Below are positions 1,044 to 22,304 of a stretch of DNA of 22,304 bases, one piece after another. The notes beneath the pieces are model-generated. The model searched no databases. It worked only from the letters and a program-made list of their open reading frames with translations, and was not told where the DNA came from. A program made the translations under genes and the position numbers. Origin of the DNA: a virus; IMG/VR virus record IMGVR_UViG_3300035138_000130, positions 1 through 22,304 of that record; one strand, written 5' to 3'. How positions within the stretch are numbered: the stretch's first letter is position 1; each line of letters starts with the position of its first letter.

Positions 1044-2639
1044 ATGCGCGTCTCACACCAACCTTCGGGCACGGCAGTCGGAATGGCCGCCTACACAGCG
1101 GGTCTCGGGCGGGGGAGAGAACGGCGTCGGAAGGAGATTCTGGACCTGCTGGAATTGACCCAGCGGGGGAACATCTACCGGCAACCTCGGGGCGGACGGG
1201 CATTCGTCCAGCAGGGAACGTGGAAAGACCAGCTCGAAGACCCGTTCAAGACACCCAAGGAGAAGATGCAGATTCGGGCGCAGCGGGAAGCGAACGCCCG
1301 GGCGCAGAGGATGGGCGAATCGATTCCGTTTCCCGACGCCGAACAGCAATTCATTCCGGCGCCCACCGAACAGGAAAAACGCTGGGAGCACGAAGAACAG
1401 GTTGCCCAGCGCAATCGCCAGTGGAGGCTTCAAGATCAAGCCGCCGCGAGTGCGCGATCCGCGAAAGAACAAGCGGACGCCGACACGCTTAGCATCTTCA
1501 AGACAAACTTCACGAGTCTCAAGAAGGAATTCGACGCCATAGGGGCTGGTGGAGTGGAGTGGGCCGATCCGGCAAGAAGGAAGAAATACTACGAGATAAA
1601 ACGTGGTCTTGCTGCGGGAGAGCGGGACCAGGAAGGCGATAGGCAATTCTATCCCCTGGAATACTACCAGACGGCAATCGAAAAGATGACCGGATTCCTG
1701 GAGACCCATGACCCATCCCACATCAAAAGACAGTCCCCGTTGGATGCTCTTTCCGGGAGTCTGGTTACGTTCGACGAAGGCACGGGACAATTCAGGGAGC
1801 CACGCGCTGGAGATCGCCCCAGCCATACATTCATCAATGGACAACTGCGAGCGATTCCGAAAACCGCCGAACAGGAATCCGCCGCGAAAGCACAAGCCGA
1901 AGCAGCCAGGCAGCGCGAGAAGCTAAACTCGCTGGCGATGGCGATCATGAAGGAAGAAGATCCTGTTACCGAGGACAAGAAGTTTCCCGACTACGATGAT
2001 GCCCTGTCCGAAGCCAAACGGCGTCTTGGAATACACGATGAAAGGTACGAAGAAGGTCTTTACGATTCCGGCAGGCCGCACCACCCCAACCCAATTAGGA
2101 CTGGTCAGGACTCGCCAGCCAACGATGACGAATTGATCGACACGGTAGTGGACGTTCCGGATGATCCTGGTTTGCCTAGCGAGATGCCTGCCGGCGACGG
2201 ATCGATTCGATTGGAAACGCTGGAAGACCTTGAGAATCCGACGGCCCAGCGAGGCTCGAATGATCCGAATTGGGAACAGCATTTCCCGATGGACGAAGAG
2301 CGCCATCAACGGGAACAGGTTATCCAGCAGCCGGACGAAACGAAGGGCATCCCCTTCAACGACCTGGACGCCATCAGCAAAGTCCCGTTTGGCAAGCAAT
2401 TCACGCTGGAAAACGGGCAGCCGCAAGTCAAACTTTACGGCTCGGACTACGTTGACGCGGGGCGTCTTGAACGGCACGGCATCGGCCGCATGATTCAGGG
2501 AAAGGGACGCCGATATATGAAGTCCAAGTACGGCGTATTGCCGTTCATCCAGAACGAGCAAGATTTCGTCGGTTATGGGCTGACACGCGGGGACTACTTC
2601 ATCGGCAAGGACAAGAAGGTTCACCAGTACAATGGCTGA
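1044..2639 (+). CDS. Putative phage virion-associated protein, first gene of the plus-strand operon
   Basis: A 531-aa hydrophilic, mostly helical protein with no signal peptide or membrane segment. The ATG is supported by AGGAGGGAGCC immediately upstream and by the TATAAT at 1011. Residues about 75-165 are rich in Arg, Glu, Gln and Ala and look coiled-coil. Residues about 290-315 are another Ala/Glu/Lys helix. About 340-440 is a low-complexity Pro/Asp/Glu linker. The last roughly 90 residues (from about IPFNDLDAISKVPFGKQF) look like a small folded domain ending in DYFIGKDKKVHQYNG. I recognise no family. Its stop overlaps the start of the 1867-aa gene by 8 bp (ATGGCTGA), so the two are translationally coupled. 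It may be an internal virion or ejection protein. Confidence 0.7.
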   Translation: MRVSHQPSGTAVGMAAYTAGLGRGRERRRKEILDLLELTQRGNIYRQPRGGRAFVQQGTWKDQLEDPFKTPKEKMQIRAQREANARAQRMGESIPFPDAEQQFIPAPTEQEKRWEHEEQVAQRNRQWRLQDQAAASARSAKEQADADTLSIFKTNFTSLKKEFDAIGAGGVEWADPARRKKYYEIKRGLAAGERDQEGDRQFYPLEYYQTAIEKMTGFLETHDPSHIKRQSPLDALSGSLVTFDEGTGQFREPRAGDRPSHTFINGQLRAIPKTAEQESAAKAQAEAARQREKLNSLAMAIMKEEDPVTEDKKFPDYDDALSEAKRRLGIHDERYEEGLYDSGRPHHPNPIRTGQDSPANDDELIDTVVDVPDDPGLPSEMPAGDGSIRLETLEDLENPTAQRGSNDPNWEQHFPMDEERHQREQVIQQPDETKGIPFNDLDAISKVPFGKQFTLENGQPQVKLYGSDYVDAGRLERHGIGRMIQGKGRRYMKSKYGVLPFIQNEQDFVGYGLTRGDYFIGKDKKVHQYNG

Positions 2640-5600
2640 TTGGCTCCAGAGACATCCGGTCGTGGCGGATATCGGACTGATCGGGGCGCAGGAAACGGTC
2701 GGGCAGGTCGCCAAGGGCTGGCTTGATACGCATCCCGTCGTGGATGACACTCCTGTTCTTGATTCCGACACGTGGATTCGCGAGAAGGCTAAAGCCGACC
2801 GGCAAACGATCAAACAACGCCAGCAGCAGAGACTGTTCGCCGACTCCGACGAAATAGCGCGGTACAGCGGCAAGCTCGACCCCCGCGACATCAAGACCCA
2901 CAATCGGGAAATGGACTTCGAGCAGGAATTCCCCGGGGAGAAATTCACCGAAGAACGAAAGTCTCGATACCTCAGCATCCGTGATGCATATTCTCAGGCG
3001 GAAAACCTGGGAACAGAGTCCGATCTGGAGAAAATGCCCAAGGCGCAGCGAGAGGAAGTCGAATCCGCATTCAATGACCTCTACCGAACTGGCGAACCGC
3101 CAAAGACCCAAGCGTCACGGTGGGCCTACGATCATCTGTATTCGAATCTGGACGTTACCTCTGGGAGTGATGAGAAGGTTGACGAATCAGTGCGCAGGCT
3201 GACTGCGCAGGCCAATAAGATGTTTCCCGGCGCGGACCTAACCGAGGACGACACGCGAAAGCTCCATGGAAAAGCTGATCGTCAATTGTCGAGCGAATAC
3301 GCCAGGATGGTGACTGCCGGAACGCCGTTTTACGACCTTGAAGTCACGCTAGCGCAGGGTGGCCGCATGATTGCCAGCCCGATTGCACGCGCTCTGGGAT
3401 GGTCGGAGCAAGCGAACACGATGAATCGCTATGCCGACGAGTTGGCGTCCGCCGCCGCCGCGCAAGACGTGGAAGGTGGGATGCCGCCGATTCTGCGGAG
3501 AGGATTAAGGGGCGCTGGCAGCACGTTGCCCAATATGGTTGTGGCGGGACGGGCGGGAGGACCGTATGCCGCGATTGCCGTGGCTGCTGCTGGGGAGGCG
3601 GACGCGGCGTACACCCGCGCTCTGGACAAGGGGATGGAACAAGGCGACGCCGCGAAATACGCCCTGACTCAAGGAATGATCGAAGCGGCCCCGGCAATCG
3701 TCATGCAGAGACTTGGCCTTGGTGGATTCGAGTCGATTGCATCACAAGGAGGAAAACAGGCGGTCGTTCATGGAATAGGAGAAGGATTGAAGCGGGCTGG
3801 CATTTCCATGCTTCAAGAATTGCCGGAAGAAATCGTTACAGAACTTGGCCACAACGTAGCGGATAAACTCTCCGGAATTGACCCGAAGGCGACCGACAAG
3901 GCCGTGTTGCGTCAGGTGGTTGCGGACACTACGGTTCAAACCCTGATTACGGGTGGATTGCTGAATGCGGCCCATGTCGGCCAGGCGGCAATAGACGCCA
4001 GGACTGAACAAGCAGCCAAATCTGCTCTCCTGCAAGAGTTGCGGGAGATTCGCTCCAAGGGATGGGTCTCGGTGGAAGAGGGCAAGGGCAAGGAATTGGG
4101 CCTCTCCGAAGAGGAGATGACGAATCGGGCCAGCCGGAAAGCGGCGGTGGACAAACGCATTCAACAAATTGAACAGGAGATTCGAGATGCCGAAGAAACT
4201 GCACGACAAGCTCAAGCGCCAAGCGAAGAAGAAGGGCTTGAAGGGGAAGCGGGCGGACAAGTACGTGTACGGGACGTTGGAGAAGCGGAAGAAGAAGTAG
4301 TCCGGACTGCCAATGAACCGGTAACAGACTTGGGCCGTGCATTGCTTCCGTACTCAGAAACAGACGCGATGGCGAGGTATATCCTCTCCTACGAAGGCCA
4401 GGAAGGATTTGAGAAAGCCGCTGAGAAATATCTGAGTACGCACGCATCAGAAGAGACTCCAGCAGCTCCTCAATTACCGGATACGCGAGGCCAAGGCGTA
4501 CAGTATCACGGAGCTCGTGGCGAAGTATCGCTGGACGATGAAGGGTACGCCAACGAGGACAATATCTATGGCAGCTTCAACACGTTTTACACGACCGACG
4601 CCATAGATGTGGCGCAAGGATATGGACGCAAGCAGCCAAACGCAAAAGTATACCGAGTCACCGAGAAGCAGCCTGTCAAGTTCTATAATATGGAGCAGCC
4701 GATTGAAAGTCGCGAGCGATTCAAGGAACTGTTCGGAACAAATCACCGTGGCGATATGCACGACATTGTTTCGGACGTTCTGCAATCCTTGGCTGACGAC
4801 GGAATTACTAACCCGTCCTTACGCCGCGTCATGGATGAGATACGAGCAGAAAGCCGAAGCTACGGCATGTCCAAGTCAGCGGTTCAGGAGCTATTCGATG
4901 CGGCCACATACAATCTGTCCAACGAAGGATTCGGCGGCATGACGCACATTGGTGGCAGATTGACGCAGCAGCCAGAACATACTGTCAAGATTTACTTTGA
5001 TCCAGTCAACCAGATTGAACTCCAGGAAACAGAATTACCAACAGAAGCCCCAGAATCGCCCGTAACGCCACCAACTGAACCGGCGTTCAGTGAGGCACAA
5101 GAAGCCCCGGAGACGCAGGAGACGCCGCCACAGGAGCCGGAATCGGCACAAAAGGCACAACCCACACGATCCAAAACCGAATTCGAGGCAATGAAGCCCC
5201 GCGAACTGGGGGAACTAACAGGAACCAAGTGGGTTGGCGTGAAGAAATCCGTCCTGGTTGACAGGGCGATGGAGAGTCAGGAGACTCCACCGGAGGAGCC
5301 GGATTTCGGGAAAGACCCGTCGTCCGGCGTGGGCATCGCTGCAACCGTTCCGATCGCTCCCCGTGGCGGAATTGGGCGCTCCGTCAAAAACACCTTCCAG
5401 AAGTTCTTCACGTCTCGTGGCGAATTGCCCGCCGACGTCTACGACGCCAAGGTTCGCAAGGAAGGGCGTGTGGCCAAGGAAATGAATGCGCTCCGGTTCG
5501 CCGCCACGGACTTCCGGAGGGGAATTCGCCAAGCGTTGGGAGGCAAGGAACTGTCCCAAGCCGACGTGGAGAAGATGAATTCCGTATTGCGCGGTGAAGC

Positions 5601-8235
5601 CGACATGGCGACCGTGCCGGAGGAAGTGCGAACCCCGTTGCAGGCCATGCGGGACCACATCGATTCCCTGTCCCGACAACTGATTGCCGAGGGTGTGGCG
5701 CAAGGCGACCTGGTGGGAATCATCTCCGAAAACCTGGGCGTCTACGCGACTCGCTCCTACCGGGTATTCGATGACCCGAAGTGGCGAGACAAGGTTCCCT
5801 ACGGAGTGAGAAACAAGGCGATTGGGGCTATTCGTAACATGTATCCCGAGGCATCCGACGCCGAAGTCCAAGGGGTTCTGGAATCGCTTCTGTTCCGGGG
5901 GGCTGCCGAGTCTCCAGCGACTTTACTGAAAGGCTCGAAGCTGGGCAGTAAAGACATGAGCGTGTTCATGCGGCGCAAGGAAGTGCCCGAATGGCTACGG
6001 GACTTGTGGGGCGAGTACAAGGATGCAGGAGTGAATTACGCGCGAAGCGTATTCAAGATGTCCCACCTATTGGCGAATCAGCAGTTCTTGAACGAAGTGC
6101 GAGAAATAGGGATGGGAAAGTGGCTTCGCACACAAGAAGAAGGCCCCGTTGTCAATGAGTACGGTGAAGTCATCACGCCGATCGCGGCCGAGGGCAGTTC
6201 CGTGATGGCTCCGCTCAACGGGCTCTACACGACTCCGGAACTCAAGGCGGCGTTCGAGCGATTCAATTCACCGCAATCCATGCCGGTTCCATTACGAATC
6301 TTCATGTCGGTGAACTACGCCGTCAAGTATGGAAAGACGGTCGGGTCCATGATGACCCACATTCGGAACCTGATCTCCAACACTGGTTTCGCGGTGGCGA
6401 ACGGACACTGGAGGCTTGACAAAGCAGGAAAGGCGTTGTGGGCCACGGCTACGGGGACGTTTCAGCTATCGAACGAGGAATTCCGGTCCTACTACAAACG
6501 TCTCGCTGAATTGGGGGTCGTGGGAGAAGACGTTCGGGCTGGTGAGTTGAAGGATGCTTTGCGGGACGCCTCCCAGGCGGACATCGACGAATTCCTCTAC
6601 AACCGAGAAGCCCGCCACGCGAAGAAGATCACCAAAGCGGGACGGGCGGGATACCGATTCCTCAACGCCTTGTATCAGGCTGAGGACGGTGTTTGGAAAA
6701 TCTACGCATGGGAAAACGAAAAGGCGCGATACTCCAAGGCCCATCCGGAATGGTCGGAACAACAGGTGGAAGAACACGCCGCCAAGATCGTTCGGGACAC
6801 GTATCCCACCTATAGTAAGATTCCCAAGGCTGTCAAGGCGCTTCGCCGGTTCCCTCTGTTCGGTACGTTCGTCAGCTTTCCCGCCGAAGTAGTTCGCACT
6901 CAATTCAACACGATCAGTCTCGGCATCCAAGAGATGCAGGCCCCGGAAACCCGCGCGATGGGAGCCCAACGGCTTGCCGGAACCGCTATCGCCTTGGGGG
7001 GATTGTCCGCCTTGTCGCGAGGAATGATGGCGCTGTTTGGAATCGGCGACGACGAGGATGACGACCTTCGGTGGTTCGTTCCCCCGTGGCAGGAGAATAG
7101 CCGATTCGTTTACACGTCCAAGCCCGAAAAGGCGACGTACCGCTTCGTGGACTTGGGCTACTCCGATCCCCATGCCTACTTGACGGATTCCGCCATGGCT
7201 TTCATGCGCGGTGATGACTGGAAAGAAAGCCTGTGGAACGCGCTTACGGAATTCCTGCGTCCGTTCGCTTCGGAAGAGATTCTGGCGAAAGCCTTGATGG
7301 ACCTTCGCAGCAATGAAGACCAGAAAATCTACAACCCCAAGGACACGCCCGGAGAACAGGCCAAGGACATGATTTGGCACATGTGGTCCAAGGCGCTGGA
7401 GCCGGGAACCATTTCGTCAATGCGGCGCATCCACGAAGCAGTGACGGGAACCAATCCGAACCGCGACCTCCAAACGGAAGTGCTGGCGCTCACAACGGGA
7501 CAGCGGCTCCAGAAAATCGACGTCGAGCATTCACTGGGATTCCGGGTCAGGGAATTCGCACGTGGGTTGACTGACATTCAGAGAATCGTCCGCAAAACGG
7601 CCACGTCACGAGGAACGGCCACGGGAGAAATGGTGGCGACGGACTTGGCGAGAATGGAAAAGGTGCGCATGGCGGAATTCGCGGAGATGCAAAGGATCAT
7701 CGGCGCCGCGCGGCGGCTCGGCGTGCCCGAGAGCAACATTCGCACTCTGCTGAAAGACAACCTTCCCAACGAGATTGCCGAACAGTTGATGACTGGAGAT
7801 TACTCCCCCTACGAAATGACCCCGCAGACCGTCCAGCAGATGCTCAAAGCACGTCCGGAGGAATTCCAGGAACGATTCGCGGGCTGGCACGGCGAGAACC
7901 TACCGGAAGCCATAAAGCGATTCGCCTTGCCGAAAGTGGGAGGTTTGCCGGTCTCGCGTCCAGCCGACCCCGACAAAGCCGAGGCATATGACAGGAAGAT
8001 TGCGACCGCCAAGGAAACGCTTGATGCTCTTGGCGTCTCCCACTCCCAGGCCCAACAACTCCTCGTGGAATACTGCACCAGCAAAGGCTCCTCACACAAG
8101 ACATACGTCAAGCGAGCAATAGCCTTGGCGAAACTCTACGGCCACTCGAAGGAGGAATGGCTGGAGTTCTATCAGAATCCGGAATTCAAGTCGTGGCGTG
8201 CTAAGTGGATTCGGGACCACAGGAAGAAGCGTTGA
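2632..8235 (+). CDS. Giant phage polyvalent / internal virion protein with ADP-ribosyltransferase-like domain
   Basis: An 1867-aa multidomain protein. Residues 1-230 are helical and charged. Residues about 300-460 are Ala/Gly-rich, with hydrophobic stretches (GGPYAAIAVAAAGEADAAY) that could contact membrane. A very acidic linker follows at about 500-560. Residues about 623-797 look like an ADP-ribosyltransferase fold: VQYHGARG at 623, SFNTFYTTD at 648-656, and a late GFGGMTHIGG...HTVKIYFDP block ending near 797. A Pro/Glu linker leads to a small SAP/Rho-N-like segment (about 848-880). The long C-terminal half contains RFPLFGTFVSFPAEVVR (about 1407-1423) and a hydrophobic stretch at about 1451-1472 before DDEDDD. 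It resembles the large polyvalent-protein-associated domains of phages (LPD38-like, from memory). Such proteins are packaged and ejected to act early in the host. No strong RBS is seen; translation is probably coupled to the upstream gene. Confidence 0.8.
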   Translation: MADWLQRHPVVADIGLIGAQETVGQVAKGWLDTHPVVDDTPVLDSDTWIREKAKADRQTIKQRQQQRLFADSDEIARYSGKLDPRDIKTHNREMDFEQEFPGEKFTEERKSRYLSIRDAYSQAENLGTESDLEKMPKAQREEVESAFNDLYRTGEPPKTQASRWAYDHLYSNLDVTSGSDEKVDESVRRLTAQANKMFPGADLTEDDTRKLHGKADRQLSSEYARMVTAGTPFYDLEVTLAQGGRMIASPIARALGWSEQANTMNRYADELASAAAAQDVEGGMPPILRRGLRGAGSTLPNMVVAGRAGGPYAAIAVAAAGEADAAYTRALDKGMEQGDAAKYALTQGMIEAAPAIVMQRLGLGGFESIASQGGKQAVVHGIGEGLKRAGISMLQELPEEIVTELGHNVADKLSGIDPKATDKAVLRQVVADTTVQTLITGGLLNAAHVGQAAIDARTEQAAKSALLQELREIRSKGWVSVEEGKGKELGLSEEEMTNRASRKAAVDKRIQQIEQEIRDAEETARQAQAPSEEEGLEGEAGGQVRVRDVGEAEEEVVRTANEPVTDLGRALLPYSETDAMARYILSYEGQEGFEKAAEKYLSTHASEETPAAPQLPDTRGQGVQYHGARGEVSLDDEGYANEDNIYGSFNTFYTTDAIDVAQGYGRKQPNAKVYRVTEKQPVKFYNMEQPIESRERFKELFGTNHRGDMHDIVSDVLQSLADDGITNPSLRRVMDEIRAESRSYGMSKSAVQELFDAATYNLSNEGFGGMTHIGGRLTQQPEHTVKIYFDPVNQIELQETELPTEAPESPVTPPTEPAFSEAQEAPETQETPPQEPESAQKAQPTRSKTEFEAMKPRELGELTGTKWVGVKKSVLVDRAMESQETPPEEPDFGKDPSSGVGIAATVPIAPRGGIGRSVKNTFQKFFTSRGELPADVYDAKVRKEGRVAKEMNALRFAATDFRRGIRQALGGKELSQADVEKMNSVLRGEADMATVPEEVRTPLQAMRDHIDSLSRQLIAEGVAQGDLVGIISENLGVYATRSYRVFDDPKWRDKVPYGVRNKAIGAIRNMYPEASDAEVQGVLESLLFRGAAESPATLLKGSKLGSKDMSVFMRRKEVPEWLRDLWGEYKDAGVNYARSVFKMSHLLANQQFLNEVREIGMGKWLRTQEEGPVVNEYGEVITPIAAEGSSVMAPLNGLYTTPELKAAFERFNSPQSMPVPLRIFMSVNYAVKYGKTVGSMMTHIRNLISNTGFAVANGHWRLDKAGKALWATATGTFQLSNEEFRSYYKRLAELGVVGEDVRAGELKDALRDASQADIDEFLYNREARHAKKITKAGRAGYRFLNALYQAEDGVWKIYAWENEKARYSKAHPEWSEQQVEEHAAKIVRDTYPTYSKIPKAVKALRRFPLFGTFVSFPAEVVRTQFNTISLGIQEMQAPETRAMGAQRLAGTAIALGGLSALSRGMMALFGIGDDEDDDLRWFVPPWQENSRFVYTSKPEKATYRFVDLGYSDPHAYLTDSAMAFMRGDDWKESLWNALTEFLRPFASEEILAKALMDLRSNEDQKIYNPKDTPGEQAKDMIWHMWSKALEPGTISSMRRIHEAVTGTNPNRDLQTEVLALTTGQRLQKIDVEHSLGFRVREFARGLTDIQRIVRKTATSRGTATGEMVATDLARMEKVRMAEFAEMQRIIGAARRLGVPESNIRTLLKDNLPNEIAEQLMTGDYSPYEMTPQTVQQMLKARPEEFQERFAGWHGENLPEAIKRFALPKVGGLPVSRPADPDKAEAYDRKIATAKETLDALGVSHSQAQQLLVEYCTSKGSSHKTYVKRAIALAKLYGHSKEEWLEFYQNPEFKSWRAKWIRDHRKKR
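4187..4300 (+). CDS. Nested 37-aa very basic phage protein, overlapping the 1867-aa gene in another frame
   Basis: An ATG at 4187 opens a 37-codon frame ending TAG at 4298-4300, in the +1 frame relative to the large gene. AGGAG lies 7 bases before the ATG (AACAGGAGATTCGAG). The product begins MPKKLHDKLKRQAKKKGLKG, continues KRADKYVYGTLEKRKKK, and is nearly half Lys/Arg. The pattern KKGLKGKRxDxYVYGTL matches, from memory, a widespread family of tiny tailed-phage proteins, which argues against chance. The host-frame sequence over the same bases is an acidic, low-complexity linker (EETARQAQAPSEEEGLEGEA), as expected where two frames share DNA. Its function is unknown; the charge suggests binding to nucleic acid or to an acidic partner. 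Confidence 0.6.
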   Translation: MPKKLHDKLKRQAKKKGLKGKRADKYVYGTLEKRKKK

Positions 8236-8683
8236 CGTTCTCCGCCACGTCCGGAAATTCACCTTCTTTCGGCAACCTCACCAAATCCGGACGGATGTTG
8301 CGTTCATCCCCTTCGAACAGGACGACCACCTTGTCGTCTCTCATTTCCAGGAAATGCGCGGCCCGGTCCTTGTTCCGCCAGTGAATCACCACCTTCTGGC
8401 CGTGTTCGGCTCCGGGGAACGAATACGCGGGTTCCTCCCCTTTGAGTTGTGCTCCATCCCGTAGCGCCAAGGCAACCACCGTCGCCAGTTGGGTTGGGGT
8501 CATTCCGTTGCCCGTCGCTCCCAATCGGGAAAGCGCGCTCGCCATGTCGTGATGCGCTCGCTTTACGGAATCGGGCAATTCGGGCGGTGCTTCTCCCGGT
8601 TGGGTTCTCAGCCCAAGACAAGTGCGCAGATAGGCGGCGTCCATTTGGCCGGAATCGGGATCGTCGGGAATTTGGTAATCCAT
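8201..8683 (-). CDS. Hypothetical phage protein at the end of the head operon
   Basis: A 160-aa soluble protein, last gene of the minus-strand head module. ATG 8683 follows GTGAGGCCCAC, and the gene lies 15 bp after the previous stop. Residues about 15-80 are helical; residues about 95-140 look like a small beta domain (KVVIHWRNKDRAAHFLEMRDDKVVVLFEGD). Its stop is TAG. The last 35 bp overlap the 3' end of the convergent 1867-aa gene, with no terminator visible between them. No family was recognised; by position it may be a minor virion or head-completion protein. Confidence 0.6.
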   Translation of the reverse strand: MDYQIPDDPDSGQMDAAYLRTCLGLRTQPGEAPPELPDSVKRAHHDMASALSRLGATGNGMTPTQLATVVALALRDGAQLKGEEPAYSFPGAEHGQKVVIHWRNKDRAAHFLEMRDDKVVVLFEGDERNIRPDLVRLPKEGEFPDVAENVNASSCGPEST

Positions 8684-8698
8684 GTGGGCCTCACAATT

Positions 8699-9037
8699 TC
8701 AATAGGAATTGGTTGGGGTGCCGATTCGGAAGAGCTTGATGACTCCATCGGCGCCGGTGGTTGACTTCACGTACAGGTTTCCGATGCCGGGACCGAAGGT
8801 TTCACTTCCTCCGTCCGTCAGTTCGTATTTCTCGTCTTCGATGCTGTTGTCGCATGTGATCGTGCCCGACAACGTAGACAGCCACGCCGACAAAGCGGAT
8901 TGCGCATCGTCATTCCCGGCCGCATCCTTGCCCGTGTGGGTGAGTTTGTACGCATATCGCACGTCCAGCGGCAAGGTAATTTCCGTTGCTGCGGTCAGGG
9001 CGAACATTCCGAAAACGTCTTCTTTCGCGAAAGACAT
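8699..9037 (-). CDS. Small putative structural protein
   Basis: A 112-aa protein from ATG 9037 (MSFAKEDVFGMFALTAATEI). An in-frame longer reading to 9091 would start inside the preceding terminator stem, so it was rejected. The RBS is weak (GAG within TGAGACGCCA). The composition is rich in Thr, Gly, Asp and Ser, with alternating hydrophobic residues, suggesting a beta-rich virion protein. The end reads GPGIGNLYVKSTTGADGVIKLFRIG. It follows the strong hairpin after the second LamG-like gene, so its mRNA level may be lower than that of capsid. No family was recognised. Confidence 0.6.
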   Translation of the reverse strand: MSFAKEDVFGMFALTAATEITLPLDVRYAYKLTHTGKDAAGNDDAQSALSAWLSTLSGTITCDNSIEDEKYELTDGGSETFGPGIGNLYVKSTTGADGVIKLFRIGTPTNSY

Positions 9038-9053
9038 TGGCGTCTCATTTTTT

Positions 9054-9089
9054 AAAAAGGCGTGGGGCGGCGCGGGGCCGCCCAACGCC
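9054..9089 (-). terminator. Strong Rho-independent terminator after the second LamG-like gene
   Basis: Read on the minus strand, a 12-bp GC-rich stem with one internal mismatch (GGCGT / GGGCGGC pairing with GCCGCCC / ACGCC) and a 5-nt loop is followed by five T residues. It starts 8 bp after the stop at 9097 and lies before the next gene start at 9037. It should end or strongly reduce the capsid-decoration transcript. Confidence 0.8.
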
Positions 9090-9096
9090 AATGGGT

Positions 9097-10176
9097 TTAC
9101 GCCTTCAGTTGCACGAGTCGCACGTACTCGACGTACAACGCCGAAGCAGAACCGCCGGCAACACCGTCCTTCAAGTGGAAGAATGGCGTCAGGCCGACGT
9201 CGTTCGGAACGTTTCCGGTGTCTCCGATCGTAACCGTGTCCGTCAGAGCGGTTCCGTTAACGTAGAACGTCAGGGTCGTCACACCATCGAAATAGATGCC
9301 GAGCTTGAGAGCGGTGTTGGCGGCAACCGTCGCGGCATTGCCCTTGACTTCGGTTGCCGTTCCGCTCTGATTCGTCTCCGTGTCAAGCTCCGTCTCGGTG
9401 GCGAGCAAGGTGCGGAAGTAGAATCCGTCGTCGATGCTTTCGGCTCCGGTGGCGTCCACCGTAACGTCATCAGCATTGGCGGCTCCCAGCCCGAGCATGA
9501 AATACTTGTCCGTCACGCTCGCGGGGATGATCTTCGTTTCGAACCACATCTTCAAGCCGGAATTCTCGGTGATCTTCACCGGGCAACCAGCTCCGCCAAG
9601 TCCGGTCAGCTTGACCGTCGCATAGTCGTACTGCGCCGAGCCGTCCGTGGAGAGCGTCAGGTATCCGCCGACACCGGGCGTGTTTGCGGTGACGGCGTCG
9701 CCAACGGCAATCGAACCGTTGGTGTTCGTGCCGGCGATCCATCCATGGGCTCCGTCGACTCCGTGCTCCGTGCCCTGGAATTCGTAGATGAACGCCTTGC
9801 TCATCCAGTCGGGGTCCGCCTTGCTGGGACAGCCCGCCCAGAATCCGCTCGCCGGGCCGGAAGTCAACCGCGTTCCATCCCATGTCATGGCGACGTCGGA
9901 GCCATCGCCGAACGTCAGAACGTCGTTGTCGCCGAAGAGCATGTCCACGTCTTCGAGCTGAAGACGGGAATTCCCAACGTCCAACAGGACGTACTTACTT
10001 GAAGAACCAAGGAACATTTTCACATCGATGTCGGTAGTCCCGTCACCGATGTTGATGGCCCCTGTGTCGTCTGTCTTTGGTTTGATGACGAGCGTTTGGC
10101 CGGAAACCAAATCCAGCGATTCGCCGTTGAGAACCAGCGCGTCTCGAAGCAGACGCAGAATGTTGGAAGAACTCAT
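9097..10176 (-). CDS. Capsid decoration / fibre protein with C-terminal LamG-like (concanavalin A-like) domain
   Basis: A 359-aa protein; ATG 10176 follows AAAGGGATATTTCA. Residues about 35-105 show short beta repeats (INIGDGTTDIDVKMF, SRLQLEDVDMLFGDND, VLTFGDGSDVAMTWDGTRL) of the kind seen in phage fibre and appendage N-termini. Residues about 110-359 look like a jelly-roll LamG-like domain, with ALKLGIYFDGVTTLTFYVNG and a final SALYVEYVRLVQL strand. The C-terminal half aligns by eye with the neighbouring 286-aa protein, so the two are probably a tandem duplication. The domain may bind host surface glycans or coat the capsid. The start is preceded by tandem hairpins, and a strong terminator follows. 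Confidence 0.7.
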   Translation of the reverse strand: MSSSNILRLLRDALVLNGESLDLVSGQTLVIKPKTDDTGAINIGDGTTDIDVKMFLGSSSKYVLLDVGNSRLQLEDVDMLFGDNDVLTFGDGSDVAMTWDGTRLTSGPASGFWAGCPSKADPDWMSKAFIYEFQGTEHGVDGAHGWIAGTNTNGSIAVGDAVTANTPGVGGYLTLSTDGSAQYDYATVKLTGLGGAGCPVKITENSGLKMWFETKIIPASVTDKYFMLGLGAANADDVTVDATGAESIDDGFYFRTLLATETELDTETNQSGTATEVKGNAATVAANTALKLGIYFDGVTTLTFYVNGTALTDTVTIGDTGNVPNDVGLTPFFHLKDGVAGGSASALYVEYVRLVQLKA

Positions 10177-10214
10177 TGAAATATCCCTTTACATTTGGTG
10201 ATGGTCCGATTAGC

Positions 10215-10289
10215 AAAAGCCCGGCCGCATCTTCGGCCGTGAAAACCGGCATCCATGAACCCCCGGCGGTCGCTACGGACCACCGGGGG
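10215..10289 (-). other. Tandem RNA hairpins between the two LamG-like genes
   Basis: Read on the minus strand, a 12-bp stem (10278-10289 with 10260-10271, loop of six) is followed by a CGGCCG / CGGCCG hairpin (10222-10239) and a short TTTT at 10215-10218. The only imperfection in the first stem is C against A on the plus strand. On the minus strand it becomes a G-U pair, so the stem is better as minus-strand RNA. The pair may protect the upstream capsid mRNA or partly terminate. Confidence 0.55.
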
Positions 10290-10314
10290 CGTGAGGCCCA
10301 CGCGAGGTGGACGG

Positions 10315-11175
10315 TTAAACGTCGACGTTGTAGGCGCCTATGGCCCACCAGTCCAAATAACTGGCGTGCGCCGTGGTGTCTTGCGTCTCGTTCTTCGTCA
10401 GGAAGCACAGCGTCAGTTCTTCGTCCGTCGGGAATGCCGTTCCAGCGGCGATGATCGCGTCCGTGACGGCGGTGTCGTAGCTGATTTCCACGCCATCCAC
10501 GAAGAATTTCAGCTTTCCGTTCGCTTCGGCGAGCGGATCGTAGAGGATGCCCAGCTTCATCCAGGTGTCCGCCACGGCGGTGGCGGCGTTATCCGTCACC
10601 TGGACCGCACTTCCACTGCCGATGGAGTAGAGCGCGTCTACTTCATCGTTGCTTCCCTGGAGCGCGCCGAAGCCCACGAAGTCCTTGGCTATCAGGGCGT
10701 GCGTCTCCGACACCATGGCGTCCGCGCCGCTGATTGCGGGCTCCGCCAAACCGAAATAGAACCCGGTATGCGCATCGGTGACGGTCGTTCGCTTCATGCG
10801 GCATTCCGCAGCAACGACGCACCGGTGTCCCACTGTGTTGTCGATGCGGACGAGACCGGCCGTTCCATCCCCAAGCTCCAGGTGGCCTTCGTCGTCTTCG
10901 GCGTCATTGCCGGCGATTTGAACGACGCCCCACTCTTCTTCACTCGTGTCGAGAGTGGCGTAAGGCGCGATGGTGACTCCGGTGTCCTGGTAGGTGTAAT
11001 ACCCGTCCTGGTCCGTTGCCGACGTCATCGTCGGGAACTTGACAAAGTCATCGAAATGGAACAGCATCCGGGACGGATCGCTGAAATTGCCGCCGATGAA
11101 TTGGTACGCCTGCCAAATGGCGGGGCTCAGTCCGCGGCCGACTGCGCCCTCAGCGGAAAGTCGTGTGGTACCCAT
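10315..11175 (-). CDS. Capsid decoration / fibre protein, LamG-like fold
   Basis: A 286-aa protein lying 38 bp after the major capsid gene; ATG 11175 follows AAGGAG at 10-nt spacing. The N-terminal third has FHFDDFVKF and EEEWGVVQIAG, typical of LamG-like phage structural proteins. The middle has VVAAECRMKRTTVTDAHTGFYFGL, a strand pattern of jelly-roll glycan-binding domains. The C-terminal block TWMKLGILYD...KLKFFVDG...LTLCFLTKN matches the paralogue downstream in order and spacing. It is probably exposed on the capsid or in a fibre and may help adsorption. There is no signal peptide. Confidence 0.7.
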   Translation of the reverse strand: MGTTRLSAEGAVGRGLSPAIWQAYQFIGGNFSDPSRMLFHFDDFVKFPTMTSATDQDGYYTYQDTGVTIAPYATLDTSEEEWGVVQIAGNDAEDDEGHLELGDGTAGLVRIDNTVGHRCVVAAECRMKRTTVTDAHTGFYFGLAEPAISGADAMVSETHALIAKDFVGFGALQGSNDEVDALYSIGSGSAVQVTDNAATAVADTWMKLGILYDPLAEANGKLKFFVDGVEISYDTAVTDAIIAAGTAFPTDEELTLCFLTKNETQDTTAHASYLDWWAIGAYNVDV

Positions 11176-11213
11176 GTTTATGAGTCTCCTTGTTTTTGGA
11201 TTGATTCAGTCAG

Positions 11214-12263
11214 TTACGCCGGGTCGGACTTCGCCGCCACGCCCGACCGCCGGGGGTCGACGCAGAGGAAGTTGTACGTCAGGTCGGTGAAGCAGTTCCA
11301 CGTGTTGTGGGACTCGCCCTGGGTCGGGCCGCTTTCCCGGAGGTAATCGCCCTTGAGGCAGACCGGGTAGAACGTCGAATGATCCACGACGTAGACCGGG
11401 TCGGACGTCGAATCGTCGTCCAACTGCGGGATGTAGATGATGGGGTAGCCCGCGATGTAGGCCGCTCCATCGAACATCGCCAGATCCTTGCCGAGATTCG
11501 AGTTGTGGCTGCGAACCACGTCCTCGAATGCGGTCATGGTTTCCTCGTTGCAGTACAGCCGGTAGCGATCCCGAATCTGGCCCCGGTAGTCCGGATGCGA
11601 AACCGGGCTGACGAAACGGCACTTGCGGAACATCGTCCGCAGCTTCTTCACCAGGTCGTTGTCGCTGACGGCAGCGTACGTGAGCGAGTAGTTCTTGAAA
11701 TGCGGAACGCTGGTCGGATTGACGCCGCCCTTCGTGGTGTGGCCGCTGGGGGCCGCGCCGGTGAAACCGTCCGTCGCGTTGTACGTAATCCAGTACTTCA
11801 GCGCCCACGGGTTGACGTTGTCGTCCGCGCCGGGCGCCGAGCCGAATCCCAGCTCTTCGATCTCTTCCACCAACCCCAACAGCGAAGCGATTCGCCGGGG
11901 CTTGATGATGTTGAGAATCAGGTCCTGGCCCGAGTTCATCAGGACATCCGTTTGGTAGACGATGCCCCAATCGGTCTGGGCGTGAACCCATTCGACGGAC
12001 ATGGTCGTCAGGACGTCCATGATGTTCACGGCGTCGGGCTGGAGGAATCCGACGTGCTTGGCGGCGGCGCGATTCAGCTTGTTCATCAGCGTCCGCTGAA
12101 TCTTGTAGCCGCTGGAGAACATCACCTTGTCCCGCTTGAACCAACGGGAGAAGACTTCGTAGAACGGAAGATTCTGCGCGATTTGCTGGAATCGCAGCCG
12201 TCCTTCCGAGACTCTGGTTGTGGCCACTACATCGGGGATGTCGGCCGGTTGAATGGTTGCCAT
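11214..12263 (-). CDS. Major capsid protein
   Basis: A 349-aa protein directly after the scaffold gene (15-bp gap), the usual scaffold-capsid order. Features are an extended N-arm (residues about 1-55), a central region with VEWVHAQTDWGIVYQTDVLMNSGQDLILNI, and a late domain GYPIIYIPQLDDDST followed by PVYVVDHSTFYPVCLKG. These resemble a family of HK97-fold capsids of podovirus-like phages, although I assign it mainly by position, size and overall pattern. The RBS is AGGAG at about 10-nt spacing; it lies in a self-complementary AGGAGACCTCCT that could partly hide it. The C-terminus (SGVAAKSDPA) is short and polar. Confidence 0.8.
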   Translation of the reverse strand: MATIQPADIPDVVATTRVSEGRLRFQQIAQNLPFYEVFSRWFKRDKVMFSSGYKIQRTLMNKLNRAAAKHVGFLQPDAVNIMDVLTTMSVEWVHAQTDWGIVYQTDVLMNSGQDLILNIIKPRRIASLLGLVEEIEELGFGSAPGADDNVNPWALKYWITYNATDGFTGAAPSGHTTKGGVNPTSVPHFKNYSLTYAAVSDNDLVKKLRTMFRKCRFVSPVSHPDYRGQIRDRYRLYCNEETMTAFEDVVRSHNSNLGKDLAMFDGAAYIAGYPIIYIPQLDDDSTSDPVYVVDHSTFYPVCLKGDYLRESGPTQGESHNTWNCFTDLTYNFLCVDPRRSGVAAKSDPA

Positions 12264-18435: not shown

Positions 18436-20403
18436 TTACCAATTCGATTTCCGCTTCATCGCCCCACGCTCTTTCAGGTACTGCGCCCTCCTCCAAGCGG
18501 CTGAATTCTTGGGAACTTCGTCTTCCCGGACGTTCATCACGTTGATGTTCTTGCGTTTCTGTAATCCGCTGTACTGATCCCCGAACGTCAAGGATACGTG
18601 CCAAGATAGTGCATCAGCGACGACACGGTCGCCATGCGCCGCCCCGGCGCCGCTGGCGTCCTTCTTGTTCTTCTCCGCCACGTGGAATGGTTCGCCGTCC
18701 TGTCCGCGTTCATATTGGCGCAGTTCCTCGATCGCGTCTTTGTCGGGGTTGTCGAAATTTCCCTCTAGAAGGGCTTGACGGTAGGGGCCTAACAGAGCGC
18801 TCTTGGGTTGCGTCCAGTATCCCGGTTTGCCGGTGTCCCGGTCATGAAGCATCGCATCCTTGGGTTTCCTTCGGTAATAGTTGTGGAAATTACTGCGCTC
18901 GACTTGCACCTGGAATTCCTTCCCACCAGGCCCGTTCGCCTCCCAAGCCAAGAAAGCAGGATCGCTCTTGTAGTCCACGAACCATCTGCACAGGGCTATT
19001 GCCAAATTGGCCAATTCGTACGGAAGAATCGCGGGAGAAGCAAACGCCAGAACCTTTCTTCCGGTTCGCCTGTTCCGAACCGTAATGGCTGAATTGCTGC
19101 TCCCGTCCCCTCCACCGCCGGCGGCGATGTCACAAGCCAAGACATACTCGCCCATCGGAGGTCTGCGCCTGAGGTCCAATTCCTCCCACAGCTTGAATCT
19201 CCCGTCAGGAGCATCGCTCCAGCTTCCCGTGAGGGTTTCCACGTCGACGAAGAATTCCCCCAACACCCGGGGAGGCACGCACTGATTCAGAAGCCGGTTC
19301 ACCAGCGCGTCGGCAAAGTACCTTGAGACAGATGACCCGAAGTTCATATCGTACTCTTGCGCCATCAAGATCGAGTCGGCGCCCTGCCGGAGGCTTTCTT
19401 CGTCGTACCACTCCGAGCGGAATTGGTCCGAGGTGAGATCGTAACCTCTCTCATTCAGTCGCGTCTTGAGGCGTTCCCAATACTCATGATTCAGGTATTT
19501 CTCGGGAAGCGGCCCGTACTTCGCTTCATCCACGGGGACGGGTTTCCCCTTGACGATTCGGTACAAACCGCGATTCTGGGTTGGGTTGTCCCACCACGCC
19601 AGCGTGAGGAGCGGTTCGTCAATTGTCTTGTCGTGGACGATCCCTGCAAATACGCCGGCCATTCCGAATGGGGTTGACAGACACCCGCGGCATCGAGTGA
19701 CCGGCTGGGTGGAGGCCATGGCGGCTTCATCTTGAGGGCGAGGATGCTTTGCGTGTTCGTCCATGAAGAACACCAAAGCCCGCCCACCCGTGGCCACGTT
19801 GGGAGTACAGGCGAAGAACGCGATAACCGTTTCACCATCAGTTCGGGTGAATGTGTGCTCGGTTTTGTTGCGGTTCCAGTCCTTTCGCTTCTTCCCCACC
19901 ATCCATTCGGGCAGTCTGTCCAGCAGCCAGTCCAGCTTGGCGCCTATACTGTTCATGTCGCCCGGTTTATCCGCAGCGTCCATGTCCTTGCTGACGAAGT
20001 TGATTACGGCCCCACGCCGGAATAGCCACAACCAAACGGCTATGAGAACCATCAGCCAGGTAGCGCCTTGGGCGCGAGACTTCACCAGCCGGAAGTCCCG
20101 CTTGCCGAGAACCTTGAGGATATGGTTCACGACCGGTATCTGATGCGGCCAGGGGAGGAATTGGACCTTCGTGTCCATGTCCTCGATGTCCACGTCATCG
20201 TCCAGAATGCGCGTCTCATGGACGTAAGCGAACCCCTTCGCCCAATACCAGAAGGACTTTCTGCACTGTTCCCGAATCAGATTCCGAAACTTCCCGACAT
20301 TGGGGTGATTTTGAGAAGCCAGCCTGAGAGTTTCCGCCCGCCACTCGGCATTCTTCTCGGGATCGTCTGGTACTATGAGGGGGTTGTATTGGTAATCCGT
20401 CAC
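18436..20403 (-). CDS. terL: Terminase large subunit (TerL)
   Basis: A 655-aa packaging motor, read from GTG 20403 with GGAG five bases before. The ATPase domain shows a Walker A-like loop in RLVKSRAQGATWLM (K108, then G113-T115), a Walker B in ALVFFMDEHAKHP (D215-E216) and a coupling motif CLSTPFGMAG. The C-terminal nuclease domain shows an RNase H-like first Asp in YVLACDIAAGGGGDGSSNSA (D425), EANGPGG, and a late GDRVVADALSW Asp cluster (about residue 590). The protein cleaves concatemers and pumps DNA through portal. A 30-bp gap separates it from the release factor gene upstream, with no small terminase between. The C-terminal tail is basic (KERGAMKRKSNW). Confidence 0.93.
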   Translation of the reverse strand: MTDYQYNPLIVPDDPEKNAEWRAETLRLASQNHPNVGKFRNLIREQCRKSFWYWAKGFAYVHETRILDDDVDIEDMDTKVQFLPWPHQIPVVNHILKVLGKRDFRLVKSRAQGATWLMVLIAVWLWLFRRGAVINFVSKDMDAADKPGDMNSIGAKLDWLLDRLPEWMVGKKRKDWNRNKTEHTFTRTDGETVIAFFACTPNVATGGRALVFFMDEHAKHPRPQDEAAMASTQPVTRCRGCLSTPFGMAGVFAGIVHDKTIDEPLLTLAWWDNPTQNRGLYRIVKGKPVPVDEAKYGPLPEKYLNHEYWERLKTRLNERGYDLTSDQFRSEWYDEESLRQGADSILMAQEYDMNFGSSVSRYFADALVNRLLNQCVPPRVLGEFFVDVETLTGSWSDAPDGRFKLWEELDLRRRPPMGEYVLACDIAAGGGGDGSSNSAITVRNRRTGRKVLAFASPAILPYELANLAIALCRWFVDYKSDPAFLAWEANGPGGKEFQVQVERSNFHNYYRRKPKDAMLHDRDTGKPGYWTQPKSALLGPYRQALLEGNFDNPDKDAIEELRQYERGQDGEPFHVAEKNKKDASGAGAAHGDRVVADALSWHVSLTFGDQYSGLQKRKNINVMNVREDEVPKNSAAWRRAQYLKERGAMKRKSNW

Positions 20404-20433: not shown

Positions 20434-21118
20434 TTACTGTATTAGATCTAATCGGCCCTTCAGGTATTCCTTTACAGAACATCGACGGCCACTGCGGTGA
20501 TTTGTCACCATGCCGTTCTGTTCCTGGACAGTGCGAATCTTCTCTGCACGGTCAGAATCGCCCACCTGTTTCCGCCGGTGACAATTCCGTTCTCTTCGTG
20601 ATCGTTGGTCTGCTGCCACCTGAAGCCGCGCAGCGAGAATGGCGCGTGCCTCAGCCTTATTGGCTGCTTGACTCCGCTCTGACTCAATCCGCACAACAAT
20701 TCCAGTTGGAACATGTCGCAACACAACGGCGGTGTCCGTTTTATTGCGATGCTGCCCACCGGGACCGCTGCCTCTCGTTGTAGTTTCATAAATATCACGG
20801 GAATCCAGTCGTATTGCATCGCGTGCCGGGGACTCAAGGATAGCGACTGTAATTGTAGACGACTGACGTCTTCCGCGTTTCTCTGTTGGCGGCACACGCT
20901 GCCACCTATGCACACCAGCCTCGGGCGAAAACCGCTCCATAGCGTTATGTCCTTCGATCTTCAACACGACAAGAGCACTCGTATCACTAATTATAGAGCA
21001 GTCAAAGACACCACTGTCGGGCGGCCCGGCTGTAGATACCAACCATTTTGTCAACAAGCAACTTGGCATCATCGCCACCTTGGCCAGGTCTCAATTCTAC
21101 AAAACACACTTCTTTCAT
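20434..21118 (-). CDS. Phage-encoded class I peptide chain release factor, RF1-like, lacking domain 1, joined by a putative +1 frameshift
   Basis: Zero-frame codons run from ATG 21118 (AAGGAG seven bases before) for 38 codons to CTT TGA; a +1 shift at 21004 then gives 189 further residues, 227 aa in total. The first part (ELRPGQGGDDAKLLVDKM, then IYSRAARQW) matches domain 2 of RF1/RF2. The shifted part continues it: LKIEGHNAMERF, EAGVHRWQRVPPTEKRGRR (RF1-type PxT at residues 76-78), GSGPGGQHRNK (GGQ at 120-122), PTGIVVRIESERSQAANKA. The spacing between PxT and GGQ is about that of E. coli RF1. Domain 1, used for RF3 contacts, is absent. The tail keeps GDSDRAEKIRTV and the NGMVTNHR block. Expected activity: release at UAA/UAG. 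It lies 17 bp after the XRE gene and 30 bp before terL. Confidence 0.8.
21001..21010 (-). promoter_or_regulatory. Putative programmed +1 ribosomal frameshift site, CTT TGA C
   Basis: Read on the minus strand: TGT CTT TGA C. The heptamer CTTTGAC is the slippery stop of bacterial prfB. At that site peptidyl-tRNA-Leu slips +1 on CUU when UGA is read slowly, giving Leu-Asp. Here the same move changes frame from ...RQWCL to DCSIISD..., exactly where the release-factor alignment changes frame. The upstream CAGTGG is only a weak Shine-Dalgarno mimic compared with AGGGGG in prfB. Confidence 0.65.
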
Positions 21119-21134: not shown

Positions 21135-21341
21135 TTACAACAAATCCTTCAGTTCAATCTCAATCGCCTTGCAGAATCGCAACATGCTAGCCAGGGTGGG
21201 ATTCTTCCCATGAAGGAACGCATTCACTGACGCCCTGGCCGATTTCTTGGGGTAGCCCATCCTCTCCCCAATCTGCTGATAGGTGAGGCCGGACTTCTTC
21301 GCTGCGCGCTCGGCGTTCTTGAGGAATCTCTTTATTGTCAT
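21135..21341 (-). CDS. XRE-family helix-turn-helix regulator
   Basis: A 68-aa single-domain protein. Residues about 12-60 form a Cro/C1-type HTH: KSGLTYQQIGERMGYPKKSA (helices 1-3 start), then VNAFLHGKNPTLASMLRFCK and EIELKDLL. ATG 21341 has no RBS. A promoter (TTGACT - 17 bp - TAAGCT) would start the transcript almost at the A of ATG, so a leaderless mRNA like that of lambda cI from PRM is likely. It heads the minus-strand operon with the release factor (17-bp gap). Its likely operator is the 18-bp near-palindrome in the divergent promoter. A stand-alone HTH this short could act as Cro- or repressor-like; a role as terminase small subunit is less likely. Confidence 0.8.
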   Translation of the reverse strand: MTIKRFLKNAERAAKKSGLTYQQIGERMGYPKKSARASVNAFLHGKNPTLASMLRFCKAIEIELKDLL

Positions 21342-21849: not shown

Positions 21850-22304
21850 ATGAAACTGCAACCCCAACCTCTCTCAAGAGAAGAAGCCAAAGCCCTGCTG
21901 GACGCCTGCTCGAATACCACTGCCGGAATTCGGGACAAGGCCGTCTTCGCCACCCTGTACCGGGGCGGAACCCGAATCAGCGCTACCTTGATGATTCGTC
22001 CATCCGACATCGATTGGGACAGGCAGCTAATCCACATCAACGTCGACAAGGGCGGAAAGGGCAGAACGATCGCGATTGATTCGGGACTACTGGACATTCT
22101 CAGGGCGTGGGCCGAACGCAGGAAGTCTCTTGGAGTGAATGGGCATCATCCGTTCTTCTGCGTCACGCACAAGGATTCGTTGGGGAATCAACTCGATTCG
22201 AGCCACTACCGGCACAAGATTCAGAGGCTCCGCAGGAAAGCGGGAATCGAGCGGCGGTGTCACTGTCACGGATTGAGGCACACCGCCGCGAGCGAATTGC
22301 TCGA
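21850..22304 (+). CDS. Tyrosine recombinase / integrase, catalytic domain without an N-terminal core-binding domain (partial, right edge)
   Basis: ATG 21850 has AAGGA seven bases upstream, and the frame stays open to the window edge (151 codons). The protein enters at once into the catalytic domain: LSREEAKALLDAC, Arg I in YRGGTRISATLMIR (R42), beta-hairpin Lys in VDKGGKGRTIAI (K67 or K70), and HGLRHTAASELL with the HxxR motif at H140-R143. The nucleophilic Tyr lies beyond the window. The usual 90-110-residue SAM-like core-binding domain is missing, as in FimB/FimE-like invertases. It might be an integrase, an invertase or a resolvase-type enzyme. A terminator precedes it, so it probably has its own promoter or is expressed by readthrough. 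Confidence 0.85.
   Translation, partial: MKLQPQPLSREEAKALLDACSNTTAGIRDKAVFATLYRGGTRISATLMIRPSDIDWDRQLIHINVDKGGKGRTIAIDSGLLDILRAWAERRKSLGVNGHHPFFCVTHKDSLGNQLDSSHYRHKIQRLRRKAGIERRCHCHGLRHTAASELL

Follow-up and report, generated by a model that had tools for sequence, protein, structure and literature searches.

Programmed frameshifting in prfB is the textbook case of self-control by a release factor. The bacterial prfB gene, which encodes RF2, has a CUU-UGA-C slippery stop near codon 26 with a Shine-Dalgarno-like element three bases upstream (PMC12421855). Among viruses, the eRF1 genes of Mimivirus and Megavirus combine UGA readthrough with a +1 frameshift at CUU-UAG/UAA (PMC3521657). PrfH (RF-H), encoded in bacterial RtcB-PrfH operons, is a class-I factor of about 200 aa that lacks domain 1 and carries GGQ (PMC1586002, PMC9223846). 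According to a 2016 review, bacteria had no known equivalent of prfB that works by readthrough or that pairs UAG with RF1 (PMC5009743). Our own literature search, whose reach ended short of subscription papers and preprints, found no phage release factor with recoding.

The window, that is the whole stretch of DNA analysed here, is an IMG/VR virus record of 22,304 bases. It carries a release factor gene divided between two reading frames, with an AAGGAG Shine-Dalgarno just 5' of its ATG (Table 1). The zero frame translates to MKEVCFVELRPGQGGDDAKLLVDKMVGIYSRAARQWCL and then meets a stop. When TGAC is read as one step, the +1 shift at CTTTGAC links ...WCL with DCS..., so that MKEVCFVELRPGQGGDDAKLLVDKMVGIYSRAARQWCL is joined to DCSIISDTSALVV and the protein runs on through GGQ to its terminal stop. 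The initial annotation called this a phage release factor gene, and profile comparison confirmed it. The fused protein matched the NCBIfam RF1 model at 196 bits from end to end (residues 5-226, model positions 106-334) and contained the Pfam PCRF and RF-1 domains. As the protein begins at model position 106, domain 1 is absent, and the stop, placed after codon 38, lies inside domain 2 and not domain 1, as initially described. The score was under the cut-off of the RF1 model (196 vs 400 bits), the NCBIfam RF2 model (131 vs 370 bits) and the PrfH model TIGR03072 (92 vs 166.65 bits). Both GGQ and an RF1-type PxT loop (RVPPTE) are retained, the loop reading PPT where that of RF2 is SPF. The gene is separated by 16 bases from a 68-aa ORF and by 30 bases from the terminase gene. 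Elsewhere in the window, a 1,867-aa ORF on the plus strand (2632-8235) matched phrog_22602 (virion structural protein), and a phage integrase-family gene (21850-22302) runs past the window end, which suggests a temperate phage.

Table 1. Features of the release factor locus and its immediate neighbours in the window.
Feature	Position	Strand	Details
68-aa ORF, upstream	21135..21341	minus	weak match to phrog_1373, phage transcriptional regulator family; no Pfam match
Whole recoded gene, RF1-like release factor without domain 1	20434..21118	minus	227 aa after +1 shift, to stop at 20434; profile matches
Zero-frame ORF	21002..21118	minus	TGA after 38 codons; encodes the opening strand and helix of domain 2 (ELRPGQGGDD...RQWCL, then stop)
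Weak Shine-Dalgarno-like stretch AGTGGTGT	21008..21015	minus	GGAGG or GGGAG there in most relatives
Frameshift heptamer CTT TGA C	21001..21007	minus	
+1-frame ORF	20434..21003	minus	remaining domain 2 with RF1-type loop RVPPTE, catalytic GGQ domain, C-terminus
Terminase large subunit, downstream on the same strand	18436..20403	minus	phrog_2, E 7e-18; no Pfam match

Relatives were sought in IMG/VR and in one genome per GTDB species, giving 143 distinct members with the window counted in. The first query alignments were made from split members, but open members would match over a greater length, so the search is unlikely to have favoured interrupted ones. The +1 split was found in 78 of the 143 (window included), with TGA as the stop in 65, TAG in 13 and TAA in none. 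All 78 have CTT as the slippery codon, a codon that makes up 11.9% of Leu codons downstream. This consistent pairing of CTT with TGA or TAG bears out the initial identification of a prfB-type CTT TGA C +1 site. CTTTGA is not rare by itself (6 in the window vs 12 expected), so what exceeds chance is its conservation among relatives. The initial annotation had also proposed a search for the same split and heptamer in homologues; in every one of the nearest relatives, L001-L014, the split falls at the window's codon, as CTT-UGA or CTT-UAG.

Homologues in one frame without a UGA at this position had been named as an observation that would speak against the idea. Only nine of the 143 members are uninterrupted, and another 56 are in one frame but keep an internal stop, which is TGA in 55 (52 single, 3 double) and TAG in one. 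As these stops involve no change of frame, the 56 members would need readthrough. The idea that one phage gene had taken up the prfB switch was right about the site, which is genuinely of prfB type, but not about its being a one-off: across a large phage family, carrying a recodable stop is the norm. The prfB heptamer is only one form of a common theme, a recodable stop in domain 2, since UAG, or a UGA with no change of frame, is found in many relatives.

Across the family the stops occupy several alignment columns, all within one stretch of about 45 columns of domain 2. In-frame stops share this stretch with +1 stops and sit mostly at the RF1 Trp. The commonest +1 stop falls directly after the residue aligned with this Trp (RKGW), and the commonest readthrough UGA is the Trp position itself. 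Trp insertion is therefore the natural guess, and on alignment grounds the in-frame UGA is probably read as Trp. Together, L138, L133, L172 and 53 others, one of them with UAG, are candidates for a family in which UGA at the place of a Trp is naturally read through.

A code in which TGA is sense was rejected for most loci of the readthrough class, where TGA terminates 175 of 447 other long ORFs. Other genes in the relatives' loci end with TGA and TAG. A comparison of ORF coverage under codes 11, 4 and 15 gave no discrimination. Double in-frame UGA was seen in the release factor genes of L061, L099, L195, L290 and L292, and the small double-UGA clade of L061, L099, L195 and L199 possibly has an altered code. 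Suppressor tRNAs were flagged in just three interrupted loci. Near readthrough loci, ARAGORN reported tRNAs with TCA and CTA anticodons (possible suppressors) and tmRNA-like genes (L142:8313-8384, L178:10028-10102, L178:7259-7628, L184:8006-8345).

The +1 sites resemble prfB in their flanking sequence as well. Most +1-split relatives have a prfB-like Shine-Dalgarno three bases 5' of the site. Anti-Shine-Dalgarno pairing of the upstream bases averaged -7.2 kcal/mol in the family vs -1.8 for 5,557 in-frame CTT control codons from the same loci. Pairing of -4 kcal/mol or better was found at 86% of +1 sites vs 19% of control CTT codons (p ~1e-28, kinship not corrected for). The window itself is prfB-like in its heptamer but not in this element, its own pairing (dG -2.5) being near background. 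About ten other +1 sites lack a Shine-Dalgarno. Several of a group of such sites (L017, L104, L110, L208, L213, L236) share CCAC(T/C)GT or similar right before CTTTGA, and this stretch is possibly another stimulator. Arg at codon -3 is encoded by AGG in 34 of 35 cases, AGG being 9.4% of Arg codons downstream. A U directly after the stop is the strongest context for UGA termination. U never follows the internal UGA; after nearby terminal UGA stops its frequency is 23-28%.

dN/dS was at most 0.24 in every pair and part that could be estimated, in +1 and readthrough members and on both sides of the stop, some comparisons being saturated. These values indicate that purifying selection is acting both upstream and downstream of the stop. 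In a quick maximum-likelihood tree with many weak branches, the +1 and readthrough modes interleave. Parsimony on this tree called for a minimum of 15 changes in where the stop lies and which mode is used, and a minimum of 10 switches between TGA and TAG; given the weak branches, both figures serve as guides.

Long uncultured phage records carry the gene too: among six examined, 485-735 kb in length, the +1 split occurs in one and in-frame UGA (one or two) in four, and the last is open. The recoded factor is also carried by bacterial isolates from several phyla, for example Nannocystis, Minicystis and Achromobacter, and the isolates checked have their own RF2. Isolates with putative natural recoding sites include Nannocystis exedens and Achromobacter anxifer. 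In the former (L272), a PrfH-like domain occurs apart from the recoded factor, within an open frame of 711 aa that is possibly an RtcB-PrfH fusion. Scanning of ten neighbourhoods revealed no functional partner shared among them. In L212, a ribonucleotide reductase with an intein and a LAGLIDADG domain (7704-11813) adjoins the release factor. In the flanks examined, tRNA genes accompany 28 of the 78 +1 loci and 38 of the 56 in the readthrough class, often within 1 kb and numbering up to 35. In L167, L180, L097, L109 and L015 the release factor gene lies within dense phage tRNA arrays of 32-35 tRNAs per ~9-13 kb. The tRNA genes beside recoded loci support a place for the factor in phage translation kits.

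We put at roughly 85% the probability that the phage gene encodes a third class-I release factor, built of RF1-like domains 2-4, whose synthesis would be gated by the stop in domain 2. A ribosome arriving at CUU-UGA-C would have two outcomes: termination, which yields a 38-aa peptide of no use, or a +1 slip on CUU, after which the complete factor is made. Because the frequency of slipping would be set by the speed at which the stop is read, slow UGA termination would lead to more factor. The simplest account would be that of prfB, in which a slowly read stop lets in a slip or a near-cognate tRNA. Across the family the gate appears to take two forms: +1 shifting at CUU-UGA/UAG, in most cases accompanied by a Shine-Dalgarno inside the gene, and readthrough of an in-frame UGA. 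We infer from the sequences that both slippage and readthrough take place at these sites. The factor is likely to serve in the phage translation kit, where it would come into play if the host's termination or decoding ran short or suffered damage in the course of infection. Points that weigh against this account are the weak Shine-Dalgarno of the window, the ten or so other +1 sites that lack one, the RF1-type loop, with which UGA sites give no obvious self-feedback, the nine open relatives, the weak branches behind the parsimony counts and the failure of the ten scanned neighbourhoods to show a unifying partner.

As a model for this control, prfB holds for the heptamer but not for the product, which is RF1-like (PxT) rather than RF2-like and is not expected to read its controlling UGA. 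The prfB feedback loop therefore cannot be transferred unchanged. Since the RF1-type PxT loop and GGQ are kept, the UGA of the window probably works as a host-termination sensor or throttle and not by simple self-feedback. With a loop of this type, UAG sites elsewhere in the family could give true self-feedback, and UGA sites would report host RF2. Nearly all phage relatives have a stop in the same part of the gene, and phages thus seem to control their own release factors by stop-codon 'errors'. A broader proposal, which we favour only narrowly, is that sensors based on stop codons (+1 shifting or UGA/UAG readthrough) were placed in domain 2 of the phages' own RF1-like factors on repeated, independent occasions. 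Such factors would be made only when host termination fails, and a cross-sensing circuit of this kind (RF1-like product, RF2-read stop) is not known in bacteria.

The best surviving alternative, though on balance an unlikely one, is a PrfH-like rescue factor that frees ribosomes after host defence or rival toxins have harmed their decoding centre or tRNAs, with the stop sensing failing termination. Domain 1 is absent, as in PrfH, and roughly one in two interrupted loci has phage tRNA genes close by, as many as 35 at a single locus. Six members (L011, L015, L016, L018, L111, L288) in which the codon-reading loop is lost or shortened keep the internal stop, suggesting that stop reading by the product itself is not needed for control. 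However, PP[TN] is kept in most members, which suggests that they read stops, and the sequence is far nearer RF1 (E 4e-73) than PrfH (E 4e-26). The predicted model of a readthrough member, with UGA as Trp (pLDDT 90.5), gave a TM of 0.83 to ribosome-bound RF1 vs 0.68 to PrfH. Furthermore, none of the neighbouring proteins that were scanned, whether in the window or at the loci of relatives, was RtcB.

Somewhat more doubtful still is a dose limiter, in which the stop would set a low, constant output of a factor toxic in excess, without sensing. UGA sites combined with RF1-type loops give no self-feedback, and low readthrough levels are the norm, both of which favour this explanation. Against it, the Shine-Dalgarno, which makes prfB shifting efficient, is kept at most +1 sites. 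Single-factor stops (UGA, UAG) are used and UAA is avoided, which fits the slow-reading idea, though a dose limiter could favour them too.

It is very improbable that the +1-frame part initiates on its own and the two halves assemble. Most relatives do have an internal Shine-Dalgarno near the junction, but the TTG of CTTTGAC belongs to the third frame, and CTTTAGC has no TTG. A start codon in the right frame, from -3 to +5 codons, occurs in only 18 of 78 members, none is conserved, and the in-frame-stop relatives do not fit. A pseudogene, indel or assembly error, the least probable explanation of all, would suit a single-locus appearance and L221, a relative with one-base deletions, but is refuted for the family by the low dN/dS on either side of the stop and by an identical arrangement in dozens of independently sequenced genomes, the split being shared by 78 of 143 members, in agreement with the initial judgement that it was no random indel or error.

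If gating by a domain 2 stop is the true function, a recodable stop in a release factor gene is a repeatedly evolved regulatory device. The phage family would then offer natural recoding sites for study, isolates included. Automated gene calling will probably overlook these phage genes or cut them short.

Among known systems, those closest to the phage gene are bacterial prfB and the eRF1 gene of Mimivirus. In sequence and fold the phage factor is best matched by bacterial RF1 (prfA), with which it shares PxT and GGQ, but it lacks domain 1, scores well below the RF1 cut-off and is recoded. It differs from PrfH in falling below the PrfH cut-off, in its RF1-type PxT loop and in that RtcB was not found among the scanned neighbours. 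Like the eRF1 genes of Mimivirus and Megavirus, it is a virus-encoded release factor needing stop recoding, by UGA-C readthrough or a CUU-stop-C shift. Those amoeba viruses, however, encode eukaryotic-type eRF1 with both events in each gene, whereas the phage genes have bacterial RF-1/PCRF domains and each show a single mode, a few of them having two UGA. With prfB it shares the CUU-UGA-C slippery stop in a class-I release factor gene, a +1 shift that restores the protein and, in most relatives but only weakly and near background in the window, a Shine-Dalgarno three bases upstream. By contrast, prfB encodes full-length RF2 with its site in domain 1, and the phage factor is RF1-like, without domain 1, with sites at several positions in domain 2. 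Unlike prfB, the phage family also uses UAG and has a readthrough version. The readthrough and UAG/RF1 versions are thus both seen here, in a phage family, at recurring positions of one domain.
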